From: Promineifilum sp.
GTDB lineage: Bacteria > Chloroflexota > Anaerolineae > Promineifilales > Promineifilaceae
Direction: 5' to 3'
DNA length: 64,000 nucleotides
Assembly (NCBI GenBank): GCA_017983515.1
Contig: JAGOBF010000001.1
Span: forward strand, 121,192-185,191
The notes under the pieces were generated by a model. It did not search any database. It saw only the letters and a program-made list of their open reading frames with translations, and was not told where the DNA came from. The position numbers and the translations under genes are program-made. Positions 4,088-14,733 of the stretch are shown piece after piece; the stretch's first letter is position 1; each line of letters starts with the position of its first letter.

Positions 4088-6592
4088 TTATGGCGATTCG
4101 ATCAGATAGCGCTGCACCGCATCAGCCGTCTCCAGCGCCAGCACATCCCCGGCCATCCGGCGCGCCTCGTCCATCGTCAGGCCGCGCACGCGCTCCTTGA
4201 CCGCTGGGATCGACGGCGCGCTCATGCTCAACTCGTCTAGCCCCAAACCCAGCAGCACGGCCGTCGCCGTCGGGTTGCCGGCCAGCTCACCGCACATGCC
4301 AATGCGAATGCCCGCCGCGTGGGCCGCCGCGGCCGCGTCGCGCACCATGCGCAAGACCGCCGGCTGTAGCGCCGAGGCCAGCCCGGCCACGCGGGCGTTG
4401 CCCCGGTCGGCGGCCATAACGTACTGGGTCAGGTCGTTGGTGCCCACGCTGAAGAAGTCTACCTCACCCGCCAACTGGTCGGCGATAGCCACGGCCGACG
4501 GCACCTCGATCATAATGCCGACTTCCATCGCCTCAGCGAACCCCTGACCCTCATCGCTCAATTCCCGCCGCGCCGCGTCCAGCATGGCCTTCGCCGCGCG
4601 CACTTCAGTCAGCGTGCCGATCATGGGGAACATAATTTTCACGTTGAGCGCCCGGCCGTTGTGGATGCCGGCCCGCAGGATAGCCCGCAACTGGGGCATG
4701 AAGATGTCCGGCCGTTGCAGGCAAAAGCGAATGGCCCGCCAGCCCAGGAACGGATTGGCTTCGTCGCCCAGGTCGAGATAAGGCAGCGGCTTGTCGCCGC
4801 CCACGTCCAGCGTGCGAATGATGAGCGGCCGTTGGCCAAGTAGGCGCGCGGCGCGGCTATAAGCCTCGTACTGTTCGTCTTCCGACGGCGCGTCCAGCCG
4901 GTCCATGAACAGAAATTCGGTGCGAAACAGGCCCACGCCCTCCGCGCCATACGCCAGTGCCGCGCCAACGTCGTTGGGACTGCCGATATTGGCCCCGATC
5001 TCCACCGCGAACCCGTCTTGCGTGACGGCCGCTATCTGCCCGGCCGCTTTCGCGCGTCGTTGGGTTGTTTGCCACGCCGCGCGCCTGGCGGCGAACGCTT
5101 CCAGTTGGGCATCATTCGGCGCCGGCCAAATCACGCCAGCGTCCCCATCGACGGCCACCTGCTGGCCCTCGGCCACCTGCCGGATGTCGCGCCCCAGCCC
5201 CACCACGGCCGGGATGCCCAGAGCGCGGGCCAGAATGGCGCTGTGCGCGGTCGCGCCGCCCAGCTCGGTGCAGATAGCAAGCACGCGCTCCGGGTCCAGC
5301 CGGGCCGTGTCGGATGGAGTCAGATCGGCAGCAATGAGGATCGATGGCTCGGCGAAATCGAGCGAGGGCGGTTCAACGCCCATCAGCCGGCGCAGCACGC
5401 GCCGCCCCACGTCCTCGATGTCGGCCGTGCGCGCCCGCAGATATTCGTCATCCAGGTCGGCGAAGGCAGCGGCCAGGGCGACCGTCTGGCGTTGCCAGGC
5501 AGCCTCGGCGTTGAGCGACTCGCGAAGTATCAGATCGCGCGTGGCCTCCAGCGTGTCGGGGTCTTCCAGGAAGAGCAAATGGGCCTCAAAAATGGCCGCT
5601 TCCTCCTGGCCCACCTGCTCCTGGGCCTTCCGGTAGAGCGCTTCGATCTCCCCGCGCGCCTCATCCACCGCCGCCATCAGGCGCGACCACTCGTCGGCTG
5701 GGGATTCCACGCGGCGGGCGACGACCTCGGGCAGGCGTGGGCGATAGAGGGCCGCCGGCCCCACGGCGACGCCGGGCGAGGCGGGGATGCCGGTCAGTTC
5801 GTCCGTTCCGGAGGGCACGTCTGAAATGGCCGGGGAACGGGGCGGCGGCGGGGCAGGTGGCGTCTCGTCCCGATCGCCGAAGTTATCGTCGGCTAGCTCT
5901 CGCAAAGCGGCCAGCGCGGCCGTGGCGTCGGGGCCGTCGGCCGTCACGATGATCTCGTCTCCCTGCCGTACGCCCAAAACGGCGACCTGATTGATGCTCT
6001 TGCCGTTGGCCGACTTGGCGCCCTTGGCGACGCGAACGTCGGCCGCGTAGCGCCCGGCCGTCGTGACGAACCGGGCCGCCGGGCGGGCGTGGAGTCCCAG
6101 CTTGTTGCGGACGGTCAACGTCACCGTCTGGCCGCCATTCGACGCGACCGGCAAAGCGGGTTCGGGGGCGAATGGTTCCGGCGCGCCGCCCAATTGCTCG
6201 CGCTTCACGCCCAGAGCGCTCTCGGCTTCGGCCAATATCTGGGCAATCGGCGCGCCGACCATCGCCTGCACCGCGGCTGCCATCGCACCCTCCACCAGAG
6301 GAGCCTGACTCAGGAAAACGTGTGCGCGCTGTTCGTCGGGCAAGAAATCCAGCGCCGTCTCCGCGCTCAGCAGGGCGCTGCCCAGGTCCATGAGTACCAC
6401 GACGCCATCGTCGCTGTAGACAGCTTCGATGGCCGCCAACACCTTCATGGCGTCGGTGCCGATGGGATTGTCGGGATCGTCGATTCCCCCGGCCACGGCC
6501 AGCGGCACACGCCCCTGGGTCATCTGCCGGGCCAGTTCCCCAACGCCTTCGGCCAGTTGGGCGCTATGCGATACGATGACTAATCCGACCAT
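4088..6592 (-). CDS. dhaM: Multiphosphoryl transfer protein: DhaM (EIIA) - HPr - complete Enzyme I
   Basis: Supplies phosphate from PEP to dihydroxyacetone kinase (DhaL-ADP). It has 834 aa and three modules. The DhaM EIIA domain spans residues 1-130, with active His9 in IVSHS. HPr spans about 155-240, with phospho-His168 in GLHARPAAR. Enzyme I spans about 265-834, with phospho-His450 in GGATAHSAIL, followed by the PEP-binding barrel (GLFRTEFLF, RTLDVGGDKPLPY, SVGTNDLTQY, and the acid Cys in GMCGELAGNP). The Escherichia coli DhaM carries only a truncated Enzyme I, whereas this one is complete, so it should autophosphorylate from PEP without a general PTS. Pro-rich linkers separate the modules. 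It overlaps the methyltransferase gene by 29 bp and is the last gene of the glycerol operon. Confidence 0.95.
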   Translation of the reverse strand: MVGLVIVSHSAQLAEGVGELARQMTQGRVPLAVAGGIDDPDNPIGTDAMKVLAAIEAVYSDDGVVVLMDLGSALLSAETALDFLPDEQRAHVFLSQAPLVEGAMAAAVQAMVGAPIAQILAEAESALGVKREQLGGAPEPFAPEPALPVASNGGQTVTLTVRNKLGLHARPAARFVTTAGRYAADVRVAKGAKSANGKSINQVAVLGVRQGDEIIVTADGPDATAALAALRELADDNFGDRDETPPAPPPPRSPAISDVPSGTDELTGIPASPGVAVGPAALYRPRLPEVVARRVESPADEWSRLMAAVDEARGEIEALYRKAQEQVGQEEAAIFEAHLLFLEDPDTLEATRDLILRESLNAEAAWQRQTVALAAAFADLDDEYLRARTADIEDVGRRVLRRLMGVEPPSLDFAEPSILIAADLTPSDTARLDPERVLAICTELGGATAHSAILARALGIPAVVGLGRDIRQVAEGQQVAVDGDAGVIWPAPNDAQLEAFAARRAAWQTTQRRAKAAGQIAAVTQDGFAVEIGANIGSPNDVGAALAYGAEGVGLFRTEFLFMDRLDAPSEDEQYEAYSRAARLLGQRPLIIRTLDVGGDKPLPYLDLGDEANPFLGWRAIRFCLQRPDIFMPQLRAILRAGIHNGRALNVKIMFPMIGTLTEVRAAKAMLDAARRELSDEGQGFAEAMEVGIMIEVPSAVAIADQLAGEVDFFSVGTNDLTQYVMAADRGNARVAGLASALQPAVLRMVRDAAAAAHAAGIRIGMCGELAGNPTATAVLLGLGLDELSMSAPSIPAVKERVRGLTMDEARRMAGDVLALETADAVQRYLIESP

Positions 6593-7151
6593 AATGATTG
6601 CACTCGGGGCAATGTTCCACTTCGGTGATGTGTTCGGCCGTGCTCGGCGTTAATTGTTCGGGCGGGCCTGCTATGAATCCGGTCGCTCCGCATCGGCACG
6701 CATACCAGCCCAGCGCCACTTCATCGTAGGGACGCGGCGAGGCCGATAAATCGATGCACTCGATATCCATCCTGAAGCGCGCATTGGTGATAAGGCGCGC
6801 ACAGCCGGCCGCTTCCAGCTTGGCCCGATAGAGCGCGAAATGGCGGCAGTGGCGCATCAACAGGACGGCCGTATCGATCCGCGCCGGAAAAGGCAGCGCC
6901 CGCGCGTCGGCGCAAACGACGATCAGATTGGGGGGCAGCGGCTCGGCCGACAGCAGTTCCGGGCGGCACTCGATGGCGTAAACCAGGCGCGCCCTCTCGG
7001 CCAGCCGTCGCGACAGGCGCAAATCGCCCGCGCCGATGTCGAGTACGGTCGCGCCCCGCGGCACAAAACCGAGGGCCCGCGCATACGTCTCGTCATCATA
7101 TGGCGCCCACATGGCTTCCCACTCCACGTCGTCCCCCACCCTCATGACCAT
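6564..7151 (-). CDS. SAM-dependent methyltransferase-like protein with C-terminal Cys-rich tail
   Basis: A 195-aa protein with a class I methyltransferase core. Motif I VLDIGAGDLRLSRRLAE is near residue 35, an acidic residue at the end of strand 2 (YAIECRPE) follows, and CADARALPFP follows that. The C-terminal third is not methyltransferase-like. It has CRCG near residue 150 and CPECNHYG near 185, a likely zinc-ribbon pair. The gene starts 1 nt after the small membrane-protein gene (a second ATG at 7145 is possible) and overlaps dhaM by 29 bp, so it is inside the operon. Its link to glycerol metabolism is not evident; modification of an operon product is conceivable but is inference. Confidence 0.7.
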   Translation of the reverse strand: MVMRVGDDVEWEAMWAPYDDETYARALGFVPRGATVLDIGAGDLRLSRRLAERARLVYAIECRPELLSAEPLPPNLIVVCADARALPFPARIDTAVLLMRHCRHFALYRAKLEAAGCARLITNARFRMDIECIDLSASPRPYDEVALGWYACRCGATGFIAGPPEQLTPSTAEHITEVEHCPECNHYGRISHRIA

Positions 7152-7402: not shown

Positions 7403-7798
7403 CTAACCCGCCAGCCGCTGCAAGGCCACGGCCAGATAGATGCCCCAGGCAATGACGAGCGCACCAAAGATGCCCAGCGCCCAGTTGATCGCCCGGAACG
7501 CGCTCGCGCTCGGCCGCAGGTCGTTGATGATGGCTCGCACCCCCAGCAGCGCGTGGATGACGGCGACAACGACGAACAAGACTTCCACCGTGAAGACGAT
7601 GGGGTTATTGACGTAGTCCAGCACTTGCTGGTAATCGCGCAAGCCGCCTTCGACGATGAAGTGATGGGCGATCATGTGGACGCCCAGAATAATGACCAGC
7701 AGCAGGCCCGAAAAAGCCTGGATCAGCCACAACGAGCCGGAGCGGTCGCGCCGGGCGGCCATTTGTTCCAGCGAGCGACCGGACATCGTGCTATTCAT
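7403..7798 (-). CDS. succinate dehydrogenase SdhD-like membrane anchor subunit
   Basis: A hydrophobic 131-aa protein with three helices, resembling the second membrane anchor of Complex II. Haem or quinone ligand candidates are in VHMIAHHF (helix 1) and VIHALLGVRAIINDL (helix 2), the His-x3-Gly-x-Arg-type signature of Sdh anchors. The start at 7798 has AGGAG 8 nt upstream; longer frames lack a site. It is 29 bp downstream of the SdhC-like gene and inside the glycerol operon. No SdhA is encoded nearby, so the usual role in succinate oxidation is doubtful. The partner is more likely GlpA (inference). Confidence 0.85.
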   Translation of the reverse strand: MNSTMSGRSLEQMAARRDRSGSLWLIQAFSGLLLVIILGVHMIAHHFIVEGGLRDYQQVLDYVNNPIVFTVEVLFVVVAVIHALLGVRAIINDLRPSASAFRAINWALGIFGALVIAWGIYLAVALQRLAG

Positions 7799-7827
7799 AC
7801 GAATGACTCCTATATCGTGACCGATTG

Positions 7828-8235
7828 TCACTTGGTGTAAATCAGCACCGCGCCGACGACGAAAAGCACCATCGCCAGGCCCACCAGGCCGTAGAACAGC
7901 CCTTTCTGTTGCCGGTTGGCGACGCCCATGCCCACCAGCGCCACGCGGATGCCGTTAAACATATGGAAGACCACGCCGAACAGCAGCACGACATCGAGCG
8001 TCAGAAAGAGCGGCGAACGGGCGATGCGGACGAAGCTGTCCCACCCTTCGGGGCCGCGCAGCAACAGGCTGAGGACAGCCAGATGCAGGAACAGGTAGAT
8101 CGTCAGACCAATGGCTGTCAGTCGATTGAAGGCAAAGGCCAGCGTGCCGACGCTGCGGCCGCGCAAGTCGAACCACGCGCGCAGCGGCTTCTTCGGCCGC
8201 GCCGGGTCGGTGGTCGGTTGAATGTCGTCCATCAT
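7828..8235 (-). CDS. succinate dehydrogenase SdhC-like cytochrome b subunit
   Basis: A 135-aa protein with three transmembrane helices. Residues near the N-terminus read as in SdhC (AFAFNRLTAIGLTIYLFLHL), with a conserved Ser/Arg region before helix 1 and a haem-ligand type motif VVFHMFNGIRVAL in helix 2. AGGAG lies 5 nt before the first ATG and 8 nt before the second (8232). It sits between the SdhB-like and SdhD-like genes. With these it would form a membrane-embedded quinone-reducing module, here in a glycerol catabolic operon rather than beside sdhA. Confidence 0.88.
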   Translation of the reverse strand: MMDDIQPTTDPARPKKPLRAWFDLRGRSVGTLAFAFNRLTAIGLTIYLFLHLAVLSLLLRGPEGWDSFVRIARSPLFLTLDVVLLFGVVFHMFNGIRVALVGMGVANRQQKGLFYGLVGLAMVLFVVGAVLIYTK

Positions 8236-8260
8236 TGCTTCTCCTTTTCAGTGCCCGAAG

Positions 8261-8346
8261 AATTAAACACGGATGCGACCGATTGAACGGACTGAGACGA
8301 ACGGGTGCTTCCAATCCGTCTAATCCGTGACGATCCGTGTCTAATT
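8261..8346. repeat. 86-bp dispersed palindromic element (copy 1)
   Basis: Bounded by AATTAAACACGGAT and ATCCGTGTCTAATT, an imperfect terminal inverted repeat, with internal AATCCGTCTAATCCGT. A homologous element of the same length is at 48328-48413. This copy supplies the TAG stop (8341-8343) of the SdhB-like gene and fills the gap to the SdhC-like gene. Confidence 0.8.
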
Positions 8347-9072
8347 CCTTTTTCCTTGGCCGAAGAGGCCGCGGAATTTGCGTTTGGTCAGATCGCGCCT
8401 CAGCGCCATGATCTTGTCGCCGGGGTAGACCTCCGATGGGCAGGCGGCATTGCACTCGTAGGCCACGTGGCAGCGCCAGCAGCCGTTTTCGCTATTGACC
8501 CAATCGAGCAGCGGCTGGGTACGCAGCCCGCGCGGCTCCTCCACCACGCGCCAGACCGCGGCCAGCGCCGCCGGCCCCAGATAAAGTTCGTCGCTGCCCA
8601 TAATGGGGCAGGCGGAGACGCACAGGTTGCATTCGATGCAGTTCTCGCAACGGGAATAGGTCTCCAGCCCCTCGGCGATCTCGGCCTCGTCCAGAAATTC
8701 GCTCTGGCGAATGAACGGCATCCCGGCCGCGTTGAAGCGATCATAGAATGGCTCCATATTGACCACCAGATCGCTGATGATCGGCATGTTGCGCATCGGT
8801 TCCACCGTGACGGTAGTCGTCCCCAGTTCGAGCACCTTAACCACGCACCCCAACTCTTCCTTGTCGTTGATGCGCAGCCCGCACGTGCCGCAGCTGGCAT
8901 GGTGGCAGGAGTGACGCAGAATCAGCGTCCCGTCCTGGTCGTGCCGGATGTCCTGGAGAGCGACGAGGACCGTCGTGTTTTCGTCGCAAAGCGTCTGGAA
9001 GGTCTCATAGGTGGGCGCGGCCTGACCCTGCTTGTAGCGCAGGATCTTGAAATCGATCATCTTTTCGGTCAT
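8341..9072 (-). CDS. succinate dehydrogenase/fumarate reductase SdhB-like iron-sulfur subunit
   Basis: A 243-aa electron-transfer subunit with all three cluster motifs of SdhB/FrdB. [2Fe-2S] is in CHHASCGTC followed by a lone Cys (LGC) about 15 residues later. [4Fe-4S] is in CIECNLCVSACP. [3Fe-4S] is in CHVAYECNAACP, with paired outer Cys residues. Length matches SdhB (about 240 aa). ATG at 9072, with a second Met four residues on. It lies 64 bp downstream of glpA in the same operon and before SdhC/SdhD-like anchors, with no flavoprotein SdhA. It probably takes electrons from GlpA FAD and passes them to the anchors; this is inference from position and from the missing Fe-S domain of GlpA. Confidence 0.92.
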   Translation of the reverse strand: MTEKMIDFKILRYKQGQAAPTYETFQTLCDENTTVLVALQDIRHDQDGTLILRHSCHHASCGTCGLRINDKEELGCVVKVLELGTTTVTVEPMRNMPIISDLVVNMEPFYDRFNAAGMPFIRQSEFLDEAEIAEGLETYSRCENCIECNLCVSACPIMGSDELYLGPAALAAVWRVVEEPRGLRTQPLLDWVNSENGCWRCHVAYECNAACPSEVYPGDKIMALRRDLTKRKFRGLFGQGKRN

Positions 9073-9095
9073 GAATGATACCTCTCATCCGCACT

Positions 9096-9131
9096 CAGAC
9101 CTGACGGAGCGTCCGGGCCCTGTCAGGTCTG
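9096..9131. repeat. hairpin between glpA and the sdhB-like gene
   Basis: CAGACCTGAC (9096-9105) pairs with GTCAGGTCTG (9122-9131) around a GC-rich loop. There is no T-run, so it is more likely an mRNA-stabilising or attenuating hairpin, or a REP-like palindrome, than a full terminator. Confidence 0.75.
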
Positions 9132-9136
9132 GGTGA

Positions 9137-10297
9137 CTACGCATAATAGGCCGTGTGCGGCAACAGCACGGACTGGCGTGTGTGGCAGGGGATTTCCAGC
9201 CCCATCTTTTGGCAAACCACGTTGGCCGTGGCTTCGGCCATGCCCCGCAGCGTCGTCGCCTTGCCGCCGGTGATGGTGACGAATCCTTCGACGCCCTCGT
9301 CGGCGTGGTCGAAGCATTTGAACGTCCGGCTAAGTTCACGGCCGGTGTCGGCCCCGCGCGGGCCGATGAGCGGTCGCGCTGCCGACCACGCCGCACGAAA
9401 TGGCGCGGTGCGAACGCCGGGCACCAGCTCGGAGCCGTATTTGACCATCATATCGATATGGTCTTGTGGCAGGCCCAGTTTGTCGGGATTCTCCACGACC
9501 CACGAACTGGTGCCGATGACCGACAAGGCCCGCTGCGGTACGATGATGTCTCCGTCGCCCGAAGCGTGGAGGCGATTAATGACCATATTGCACAATCGGC
9601 CGCGCACGGCCAGCATGACGCCCGGCGACGGCCGGATAGGCACGTCGACGCCGACCATGTTGCCGATCTTCCCGCTCCAGGCCCCGGTGGCGCTGATGAA
9701 GATGTCGCCGCCGATTTCGTATTCCTTATTTGTCGTGTGGTCGCGCACGCGAACAGCGCTGACCACGTTGCCGCGCTTCACGAAGCCGACCACTTCGGTA
9801 TAGGTCTTGATGACTGCGCCGCTGTGTTTGGCTGTGGCGAAGAAGCGCAGAGGCATCCGCATGGCGTCCATCGTGGCGTCGGGCACCTGGACGCCCATGA
9901 TGACGTTGGGGTTGACGTTCGGCTCGCGCGCCAGCACCTCTTGCTGCGTCAGCCGTCGCGCCGGGATGCCGCACTCGTGGCAGGCCTCGATGAATTCATG
10001 ACTGTAGGCCGCTTCTTCTTCGGTCAGGGCGATGAATAAGCCATCGTTCAACTCGAAAGAGCCGGGGGCGATCCGCCGCAGGATCATGTTCTCTTCGATG
10101 CATTCCACGGCCGATTCCTTGTCCTTCACCGCATAGCGCGCGCCGCTGTGCAGCAGGCCGTGGTGGCGGCCGGTGGTGCCCGACGTAACCTCGCCGCGTT
10201 CCAGCAGCGTGACTTTATACCCCCGCAGCGTCAGGTCGTGGGCGACGGCCGCTCCCGTTCCGCCCCCGCCAATGATGACCGCATGAAATGATGCCAT
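9137..10297 (-). CDS. glpA: FAD-dependent glycerol-3-phosphate dehydrogenase, GlpA type, short form
   Basis: Oxidises glycerol-3-phosphate to DHAP with FAD. It has 386 aa. The dinucleotide-binding motif VIIGGGGTGAAVAHDLTLRG is at the N-terminus, then GTTGRHHGLLHSGARY typical of GlpA/GlpO, a substrate-domain region, and TITGGKATTLRGMAEA near the end, the usual GlpA/GlpD FAD-closing motif. E. coli GlpA is about 540 aa because of a C-terminal BFD-like [2Fe-2S] domain; that domain is absent here. The start at 10297 has GAGG 5-6 nt upstream. It lies between glpK and the SdhB/C/D-like genes. No glpB or glpC is visible. It likely donates electrons to the SdhB-like subunit (inference). Confidence 0.92.
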   Translation of the reverse strand: MASFHAVIIGGGGTGAAVAHDLTLRGYKVTLLERGEVTSGTTGRHHGLLHSGARYAVKDKESAVECIEENMILRRIAPGSFELNDGLFIALTEEEAAYSHEFIEACHECGIPARRLTQQEVLAREPNVNPNVIMGVQVPDATMDAMRMPLRFFATAKHSGAVIKTYTEVVGFVKRGNVVSAVRVRDHTTNKEYEIGGDIFISATGAWSGKIGNMVGVDVPIRPSPGVMLAVRGRLCNMVINRLHASGDGDIIVPQRALSVIGTSSWVVENPDKLGLPQDHIDMMVKYGSELVPGVRTAPFRAAWSAARPLIGPRGADTGRELSRTFKCFDHADEGVEGFVTITGGKATTLRGMAEATANVVCQKMGLEIPCHTRQSVLLPHTAYYA

Positions 10298-10473: not shown

Positions 10474-11979
10474 TTACTCCACCCAGTCGAAGGTACGCGT
10501 GACGGCCTTCTTCCACATCCGGTAATTCTCGGTTGCTGCCTTGCTTTCCGGGTCCGGTTCCCAGGTCTTGTCCACGGCCCAGTTCTCGCGGATGTCGTCT
10601 TCGGTCTTCCAGAAGCCGACCGCCAGACCGGCGGCATAGGCCGCGCCGAGGGCCGTCGTCTCCGCAACCTGCGGCCGGATAACCGGCACGCCGAGGACGT
10701 CAGCCTGGAACTGCATCAAAGTATCGTTGTAGACCATGCCGCCATCGACCTTGAGGGCCGTCAGCGGCACGCCGGAGTCGGCGTTCATGGCATCCAGCAC
10801 TTCACGGGTCTGATAGGCGGTGGCTTCCAGCGCGGCGCGGGCGATGTGGCCCTTGTTGACGTAGCGCGTCAGGCCGACGATGGCCCCGCGCGCGTCAGAC
10901 TTCCAGTAGGGCGCGAACAGGCCGGAGAAAGCGGGCACGAAGTAGACGCCGCCGTTGTCGTCAACGGACTTGGCATAGTCTTCAATGTGCGGGCTGTAGT
11001 CGAAAAAGTTCAGGTTGTCGCGCAACCATTGCACCAGCGCGCCGGTGATGGCGATAGAGCCTTCCAGGGCGTAGACGGCCGGTTTGTCGCCGAACTTGTA
11101 GCACAGGGTCGTCAGCAGGCCGTTCTTGGACGGAACGATCTCGGTGCCGGTGTTCATGATCATGAAGCAGCCGGTGCCGTAGGTATTCTTGGCCTCGCCG
11201 GGGCTAAGAGCCGCCTGGCCGACGGTAGCCGCCTGCTGGTCGCCCAGGTCGCCGGCCACGGGGATGCGCCCGCCGAACGGCCCCTCTTGCAGGGTATGGC
11301 CGTAGACGGCCGACGACGACATGATCTTGGGCAACATGCTCAGCGGCACGCCCATCGTCTCGGCGATGTCCTTGTCCCAATCCAGCGTCTTGAGGTTCAT
11401 CAGCATCGTGCGGCTGGCGTTGGTCACGTCGGTCACGTGTGCGCCGCCGTTCGAGCCGCCAGTCAGGTTCCAGATGATCCAGGTATCCATGTTGCCGAAA
11501 ATGGCGTCGCCACGCTGGGCGGCCGCCTTAGCCTCGGGCACGTTGTCCAAAACCCAGCGAACCTTGGGGCCGGAGAAGTAGGTCGCCAACGGCAGACCAA
11601 CCTTATCGCGGAAACGATTCTGACCCACGTTGCCCTCGAACTCCTTGATGAGTTTGTCGGTGCGCGTGTCCTGCCAGACGATGGCATTGTAATACGGTTT
11701 GCCGGTGTTCTTGTCCCACACCAGCGTGGTCTCGCGCTGGTTGGTCACGCCGACGGCGGCAATGTCGTTGGCCTTGAGGCCGGCCTTCTTCAGCGCGCCC
11801 TTGATGACGTCCTGGGTACGAGCCCAGATCTCCATCGCATCATGCTCGACCCAACCGGCCTGGGGATAAATCTGCTTGTGCTCCATCTGGTGCATACCGA
11901 CGGGCAGTCCCTGATGGTTGAAAATCATGCATCGGGTACTGGTCGTACCCTGATCGACTGCTGCAACGTAATCTGCCAT
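10474..11979 (-). CDS. glpK: glycerol kinase
   Basis: Phosphorylates glycerol to sn-glycerol-3-phosphate with ATP. It has 501 aa, the standard length for GlpK. The FGGY-family N-terminal phosphate motif [15 protein letters not shown] is at residues 6-20. Substrate-site stretches include [11 protein letters not shown] and [11 protein letters not shown], and the C-terminal ATP site is [17 protein letters not shown] lies 9 nt before the ATG at 11979; the frame upstream to 12018 has no site. It is the fourth gene of the glpF-dhaK-dhaL-glpK-glpA run. I see no PTS His-phosphorylation site that I can identify with certainty. Confidence 0.97.
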
Positions 11980-12039
11980 TGTTCCGTTCTCCTTTGTAAG
12001 AAAATGCTCGCTTATCAATAGGTTGGTAGGAGTGATGAG

Positions 12040-12129: not shown

Positions 12130-12765
12130 TCATTCCTTCAGCGCTGTGAGTAGCGCGTTTAGAATCATATGGGAGGAAGTAGCGCCGGGGTCCTGATGAC
12201 CGATGCTGCGTTCGCCCAGATAGCTGGCCCGACCCTTGCGGGCCTGCAGGGGAATCGTGTCTTTCATCCCTTGCTCGGCCGCGGCGACGGCGCTTTCCAT
12301 CGCGCCGAGCGATCCTTTGCCGTCGGCCACACCGGCTTTCAGCGCGGCCATCGCCGGTAGCAGTGCGTCCATCATCGTCTTGTCGCCCGGCTGGGCGCGG
12401 CCGCGCGCCTGCACACCGTCGACAGCGCCCTGGAGCATGACGACCAGGTCCTCGTCGCTCAACTCTTCCTTGGCGTCGGCGGCCATCCCCCCGCGTTGAA
12501 AGAACGTGCCGTAGAGCGGCCCGCTGGCTCCGCCCACGCTGGAGATTAGGGTCATGCCCACGGTTTTCAGGATGTTGCCGACGTCCTTGTCGGCCACCGT
12601 GGGCAGTTTCTCGGCCACCTTGCGGAAGCCGCGATCCATATTCGTGCCGTGGTCAGCGTCGCCGATGTCCGCGTCCAGTTGAGTCAGATATTCCTTATTC
12701 TGCTCCAGGACTTCGGCCGTCAACTCCAGCCAGCGAACGATTTGCTCTTTGGTTACGATAGTCAT
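12130..12765 (-). CDS. dhaL: dihydroxyacetone kinase subunit DhaL (ADP-binding)
   Basis: Nucleotide-binding subunit of the PEP-dependent dihydroxyacetone kinase. Its tightly bound ADP is rephosphorylated by DhaM and passes the phosphate to DHA on DhaK. It has 211 aa, as in E. coli DhaL. The Mg-ADP-binding segment DADIGDADHGTNMDRG is at residues 31-46, with the Asp residues that hold two Mg ions. A helical-barrel pattern follows, with SSVGGASGPLYGTFF near residue 75 and the nucleotide-lid region PGDKTMMDAL. ATG at 12765. It sits between dhaK and glpK. Confidence 0.96.
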   Translation of the reverse strand: MTIVTKEQIVRWLELTAEVLEQNKEYLTQLDADIGDADHGTNMDRGFRKVAEKLPTVADKDVGNILKTVGMTLISSVGGASGPLYGTFFQRGGMAADAKEELSDEDLVVMLQGAVDGVQARGRAQPGDKTMMDALLPAMAALKAGVADGKGSLGAMESAVAAAEQGMKDTIPLQARKGRASYLGERSIGHQDPGATSSHMILNALLTALKE

Positions 12766-12839: not shown

Positions 12840-13913
<1,074 letters not shown>

Positions 13914-14007: not shown

Positions 14008-14733
14008 CTACCAGCCCAAAGCGCCCCACACCAGGGCCCCGATGATGCCGCCGATAATCGGGCCGACCACCGGAATCCAGGAGTAACCCCAATCGGAGCT
14101 GCCCTTGCCGGGGATGGGTAGGATGGCATGAGCGATGCGCGGCCCAAGGTCGCGGGCCGGGTTGATCGCGTAGCCCGTGGGGCCGCCCAGCGACAGGCCG
14201 ATGGCCCACACCAGGAAAGCGACCGGGATTGCGCCCAGAGCGCCCAGGTCGATCGCGTCGGTGCCCATGACCGCCCCGCGGATGCCCAGAACGCCGAAGA
14301 CCAGCATGAACGTGCCCACGATTTCCGTAACCAGGTTCCAGACCGTGTTGCGGATGGCCGGGCCGGTCGAGAAGACGGCCAGCTTGGAAGCAGGATCGGG
14401 CGTGGCCGCCCAATGGTTGTAATAGCTCAGCCAGACCAGGACAGCGCCGAGGAAGGCGCCGACCATCTGGGCGATGATGTAACCGGGAACGAGACCCCAG
14501 TCGAAGTTGCCGGCCACGGCCAGGCCGATGGTCACGGCCGGGTTCAGATGCGCGCCGCTGATGGTGCCGGTGATGAAAACGCCGGTAAACACAGCCAGGG
14601 CCCAACCCGTGGTGATGACGATCCAGCCGGCAGAATTGCCCTTGGTCTTGCCCAGGACAACGTTCGCCACCACGCCGTCGCCCAATAGCAGCAGGATCAT
14701 GGTGCCAATTACTTCGCCGATATATGCATTCAT
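14008..14733 (-). CDS. glpF: glycerol uptake facilitator (aquaglyceroporin)
   Basis: Channel for passive glycerol entry, 241 aa, six transmembrane helices. Both NPA boxes are present: HLNPAVTIG with NPA at residues 64-66, and [12 protein letters not shown] with NPA at 191-193. The Asp after NPAR is the usual mark of glycerol facilitators as opposed to water channels. AGGAGAG lies just before the ATG at 14733. It is the first gene after the regulator and the 417-bp promoter region, and is followed by the hairpin at 13948-13983. Confidence 0.96.

Follow-up and report, generated by a model that had tools for sequence, protein, structure and literature searches.

How does a glycerol-3-phosphate (G3P) dehydrogenase reach the quinone pool when its operon holds neither glpB nor glpC? 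This question is raised by a four-gene core (positions 7403-10297, minus strand) in a stretch of 64,000 nucleotides from Promineifilum sp. (contig JAGOBF010000001.1, positions 121,192 to 185,191), which is referred to here as the window. The core consists of a short glpA gene for the flavin adenine dinucleotide (FAD)-dependent subunit of G3P dehydrogenase (9137..10297, 386 amino acids), followed by genes for an SdhB-like iron-sulfur subunit (8341..9072, 243 amino acids), an SdhC-like anchor (7828..8235, 135 amino acids) and an SdhD-like anchor (7403..7831, 142 amino acids). A first-pass annotation had proposed that SdhB, SdhC and SdhD replace GlpB and GlpC and couple GlpA directly to the quinone pool, forming a new complex II-type enzyme. 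All four genes lie where that annotation had put them, between glpK and dhaM, and the operon indeed contains no sdhA, glpB or glpC. The data presented below make it very probable that their products assemble into a single membrane complex, a G3P:(mena)quinone oxidoreductase in which GlpA would feed SdhB, SdhC and SdhD.

The window GlpA matches TIGR03377 (E = 2e-130) over profile positions 2-378 of 530, with a score below the cut-off, and Fer2_BFD (PF04324) is absent from it and from the other short GlpAs checked; the protein thus ends before the C-terminal iron-sulfur domain, as annotated. Long GlpAs of other Chloroflexota do contain Fer2_BFD. Across the loci the length of GlpA is bimodal, with 384-419 amino acids in the sdhB-linked proteins and 512-561 in the other kind. 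A truncated or frameshifted glpA was ruled out, since 384-419 amino acids is the length throughout the clade. At most two changes are needed to explain the short form in the GlpA tree, and its monophyly is not rejected (p-value of the approximately unbiased test, p-AU, 0.88); a lone GlpA of 399 amino acids without sdhB (L230) sits on a long branch. The AlphaFold2 (AF2) model of GlpA (predicted local distance difference test, pLDDT, 93.5) has E. coli GlpD as its top structural match (Z 42.0, root mean square deviation 2.8, 374 aligned residues). When GlpA is aligned to G3P dehydrogenase and oxidases of solved structure, the motifs RY 54-55, RP 308-309 and GGK 344-346 coincide, and we take them to be the substrate-binding residues of GlpD. 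A sequence search found no solved GlpABC structure.

The three remaining proteins match succinate dehydrogenase family models: SdhB is above the cut-off of TIGR00384 (E = 3e-52), and SdhC and SdhD match Sdh_cyt PF01127 (E = 1e-13 and E = 3e-8). SdhB has all three cluster motifs (C56/C61/C64/C76, C145/C148/C151/C155 and C201/C207/C211), and an alignment of 21 orthologs shows no variation in the cysteine ligands of the [2Fe-2S], [4Fe-4S] and [3Fe-4S] clusters. Hydropathy reveals three hydrophobic helices each in SdhC and SdhD; the alignments contain invariant histidines at H51 (transmembrane helix 1, TM1) and H91 (TM2) of SdhC and at H52/H57 (TM1) and H93 (TM2) of SdhD. The AF2 model of SdhD is most similar to the M. 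smegmatis Sdh2 anchor 6lum_H (Z 12.2, modest for a helical bundle; root mean square deviation 4.0, 117 aligned). Complex II classes are sorted by their membrane-spanning parts, and the class A anchor has been defined (PMC10238741); at the level of sequence, the window proteins have its two subunits of three transmembrane helices and its four heme-ligand histidines (H51/H91 and H52/H93). The histidine pattern is that of diheme class A enzymes, and hemes are accordingly predicted. For sdhD, M12 (base 7798) is the more likely start than the annotated one, as in most orthologs. Natural SdhB-SdhC fusions in a single reading frame are found at L150 4992-6128, L151 4629-5762 and L184 1383-2549; no natural GlpA-SdhB fusion was seen in the loci inspected.

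The conserved ligands bear on the role of SdhBCD. The short GlpA could itself reduce quinone, like the S. acidocaldarius G3P dehydrogenase and GlpD, with SdhBCD serving mainly as an anchor, like Sulfolobus CoxG. GlpD is the closest fold to GlpA, and Sulfolobus GlpA relatives reduce Q1 without their anchor, according to PMC11962113, but a mere anchor is not expected to retain the ligands of all three iron-sulfur clusters and four heme histidines across distant families and phyla. We regard this explanation as very unlikely.

To see how far the arrangement extends, we turned to a genome collection with one genome per species, in which 251 stretches encode a relative; the locus counts cover the best 80 of these 251. 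glpA lies directly upstream of sdhB in 67 of the 68 loci with at least 1.1 kilobases (kb) of upstream DNA, SdhC and SdhD are encoded downstream of SdhB in 66/76, and glpK is present in 52/59, so that the gene order glpA-sdhB-sdhC-sdhD is conserved. SdhA is encoded in none of the 80 loci and GlpB/GlpC in one, where they lie beside a separate long-GlpA operon. Carriers with names belong to the Chloroflexota (Anaerolineae, Thermoflexia, Caldilineae and Ktedonobacteria), the Actinomycetota and, in one case, the Bacillota; the arrangement is seen in many Chloroflexota families and two further phyla. No archaeal stretch is among the best 80 of the 251, and a plasmid search gave no close relative.

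A survey of 400 Chloroflexota genomes identified short GlpA (A1 score above 530 bits) in 22 and the GlpA-linked SdhB clade (above 240 bits, two fragments in G005 counted) in exactly those 22 and no others (Fisher p ~1e-36, relatedness ignored). The two genes adjoin in most of these carriers and are separated by contig ends in G005 and G427. Strong SdhB matches were obtained in 12 of 396 Actinomycetota genomes, every one of them adjoining GlpA. A chance neighbourhood of glpA and sdhBCD is ruled out by the 22/22 co-occurrence together with the conserved order.

In a tree of 96 SdhB sequences, one fully supported branch splits all GlpA-linked from all SdhA-linked proteins. At several sites near the [2Fe-2S] ligands, residues that hardly vary among SdhA-linked SdhBs are exchanged in their GlpA-linked counterparts (R54 to H, I/V60 to S, N72 to E and K100 to S/A). 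An altered flavoprotein contact would predict changes of this kind, which are suggestive only. H58 beside the [2Fe-2S] cluster was dropped as a signature of GlpA-linked SdhB, because the SdhA-linked SdhBs of Chloroflexota share it.

These results also bear on whether sdhBCD are parts of an ordinary succinate dehydrogenase, with sdhA elsewhere and the adjacency to glpA accidental. Apart from the family matches of SdhB, SdhC and SdhD, what speaks for this is that neither SdhA nor a second SdhB, including an ordinary SdhB, was detected in the draft genome of the window (G000). This absence means little, because the draft is only 68.6% complete, and a 99% complete genome of the same genus has the same operon and, elsewhere, a complete ordinary sdhCDAB. 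Ordinary SdhA is encoded in 30 of 31 carrier genomes, G000 being the exception, and adjoins its own SdhB wherever inspected (e.g., L035, L050 and L133), which rules out an orphan sdhA. The glpA-linked set is therefore not a displaced succinate dehydrogenase; its SdhB forms a separate clade that tracks short GlpA in all 22 genomes. We consider this explanation refuted for practical purposes and give it next to no probability. In G341, a glpA-sdhB-sdhC set has an SdhA-SdhB fusion of 869 amino acids (L121 12310-14919) within a few kb of it.

What occupies the place of the core in relatives without it? In other Chloroflexota, long glpA-glpB-glpC fills the same slot of glpF-dhaK-dhaL-glpK-[ ]-dhaM (L229 and L218). 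L229 comes from the same class as the window genome and is preceded by the same type of regulator; in L219 and L220 the gene order agrees as far as glpC. GlpB and GlpC of the long-GlpA loci score above the cut-off of their NCBIfam models. Both kinds of GlpA occur within one genome in G215, G341, G379 and G449. Judged by gene order, the same-slot replacement is a clean cassette exchange and the strongest evidence that SdhBCD would do the job of GlpBC. The first-pass proposal is largely supported, as sdhA is not orphaned where inspected and the gene order is conserved; the principle itself is not new, since such a complex was drawn earlier for Thermofilum pendens (PMC11962113). In G449, a short glpA-sdhB set is located about 3 kb from a long glpA on one contig (L120 7213-12942), as if in mid-exchange.

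From these features we infer a four-protein complex, its electron route, the quinone used and the number of hemes. GlpK would make G3P, which the FAD-bound GlpA would oxidise to dihydroxyacetone phosphate (DHAP), in effect substituting for the SdhA flavoprotein of complex II. The electrons of FADH2 would go to the [2Fe-2S] cluster of a partner-specialised SdhB, bypassing the BFD [2Fe-2S] domain, GlpB and GlpC, and then via the [4Fe-4S] to the [3Fe-4S] cluster. From there, as in class A complex II, they would pass into SdhC/SdhD, to (mena)quinone and two b hemes; we infer that GlpA is in this way coupled directly to the quinone pool. The potentials of DHAP/G3P and menaquinone are about -190 mV and -74 mV, respectively, and the reaction is therefore downhill without help. 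If the diheme anchor holds the quinone at the outer side, proton-motive force would be consumed by the enzyme for a reaction that can proceed without it.

Several points weigh against such a complex. All support for it comes from sequence and gene order. Short GlpA and GlpA-type SdhB are encoded by single unlinked genes in family f5 (G041: L128 6057-7316 with L049 7374-8108; G314: L127/L126; G401: L129/L130), and dedicated SdhC/SdhD were not found in these three genomes. GlpA-SdhB without a recognised adjacent anchor is encoded in seven Chloroflexi loci (L199, L200, L203, L205, L208, L209 and L213) and in a second copy in G309 (L117). Not all GlpA-SdhB versions therefore have the anchor, and some may reduce another acceptor. 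The anchor-less pairs of f5 and of some fen Chloroflexi would fit a G3P dehydrogenase that is soluble or loosely attached, that has a physiological acceptor other than quinone and to which SdhC and SdhD were added in most lineages. Both anchor genes follow directly downstream in 66/76 loci, though, and SdhB is fused to SdhC in three, which leaves a soluble enzyme most unlikely as a general explanation. In a second kind of locus (L199 3532-7606, L208 3412-7647 and L117 6170-9489), glpA-sdhB is followed by a gene for a PanE/ApbA-like reductase that replaces sdhC/sdhD. L199 and L208 contain a gene for a PlsY-like protein (G3P acyltransferase), too; the PanE/ApbA-like and PlsY-like names come from reading the sequences and not from a family search.

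How does the proposed G3P:(mena)quinone oxidoreductase compare with known enzymes? The SdhA flavoprotein is usually what defines complex II. Like class A diheme complex II (succinate:quinone oxidoreductase; M. smegmatis Sdh2, 6LUM), the window set has an SdhB with three clusters and two anchors of three transmembrane helices with four histidines in TM1/TM2; the flavoprotein is GlpA (DAO family, PF01266), whereas complex II has SdhA (FAD_binding_2 family), which acts on succinate. GlpABC of E. coli, Haloarchaea and other Chloroflexota has a homologous FAD subunit, catalyses the same reaction and, between glpK and dhaM, occupies the same slot; the window set lacks the BFD domain on GlpA, GlpB and GlpC (CCG domain) and has SdhBCD instead. 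The GlpA-CoxG G3P dehydrogenase of S. acidocaldarius (PMC11962113) likewise pairs GlpA with a membrane partner other than GlpBC, but CoxG is only an anchor, while the partner in the window has predicted iron-sulfur clusters and probable hemes.

The closest precedent is archaeal. In a few Thermofilum-related species, glpA precedes genes for SdhB, SdhC and SdhD counterparts, and a GlpA-SdhBCD complex has been drawn for T. pendens, a proposal that, going by the available part of the paper, is based on synteny and GlpA phylogeny (Commun Biol 2025, PMC11962113). The proposed architecture is the same in the window, its relatives and the collection, glpA followed by sdhB, sdhC and sdhD without glpBC; the Thermofilum case is archaeal, the window case bacterial. 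No other paper on GlpA-SdhBCD was found in the literature searched. The concept is thus already published for archaea; as far as the literature searched shows, its bacterial occurrence in three phyla, its breadth, the exclusive association, the variants and the cassette exchange are new.

A wider reading is tentative, and we would put it at slightly less than an even chance: in bacteria, a DAO-family flavoprotein would have taken the place of SdhA on the chassis of a class A diheme complex II. The result would be a further complex II-type enzyme, a G3P:menaquinone oxidoreductase. Its genes are common in Chloroflexota and occur in some Actinomycetota and one Bacillota genome; it would swap with GlpBC as a cassette and may have an origin separate from that of the archaeal case. 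Should GlpA dock on SdhB, then SdhBCD would be a general module for passing electrons to quinone, open to a flavoprotein from a different family. The finding would also help to tell which of the uncultured Chloroflexota are able to respire glycerol, and operons with the GlpBC and the SdhBCD version in the same slot would provide pairs for direct comparison. The statement in PMC11962113 that canonical bacterial glpA is consistently accompanied by glpB and glpC would then have to be corrected.

The complete operon of the window has the order glpF-dhaK-dhaL-glpK-[glpA-sdhBCD]-dhaM, all on the minus strand. The glycerol facilitator gene glpF (14008..14733), dhaK (12840..13880) and dhaL (12130..12765) have orthologs at the equivalent place in relatives. 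They are followed by glpK for glycerol kinase (10474..12018, TIGR01311 E = 2e-223), which precedes glpA in most loci. The intergenic gaps from glpK through glpA, sdhB and sdhC to sdhD are 176, 64, 105 and -4 bases; scans for sigma-70 promoters and terminators gave results at chance level. The downstream end is formed by a dhaM-HPr-EI fusion (4088..6592, 834 amino acids; TIGR02364 and TIGR01417). In many loci a gene for a methyltransferase-like protein lies between sdhD and dhaM; the window protein (6564..7151) matches PF13649 weakly, has orthologs in relatives and carries cysteine pairs near its C-terminus, and it belongs to no clear family. The genes for the phosphoenolpyruvate-dependent dihydroxyacetone kinase (dhaK, dhaL and dhaM-HPr-EI) sit inside the glpK operon in the SdhBCD and the GlpBC versions alike, although DHAP already comes from the oxidation of G3P.

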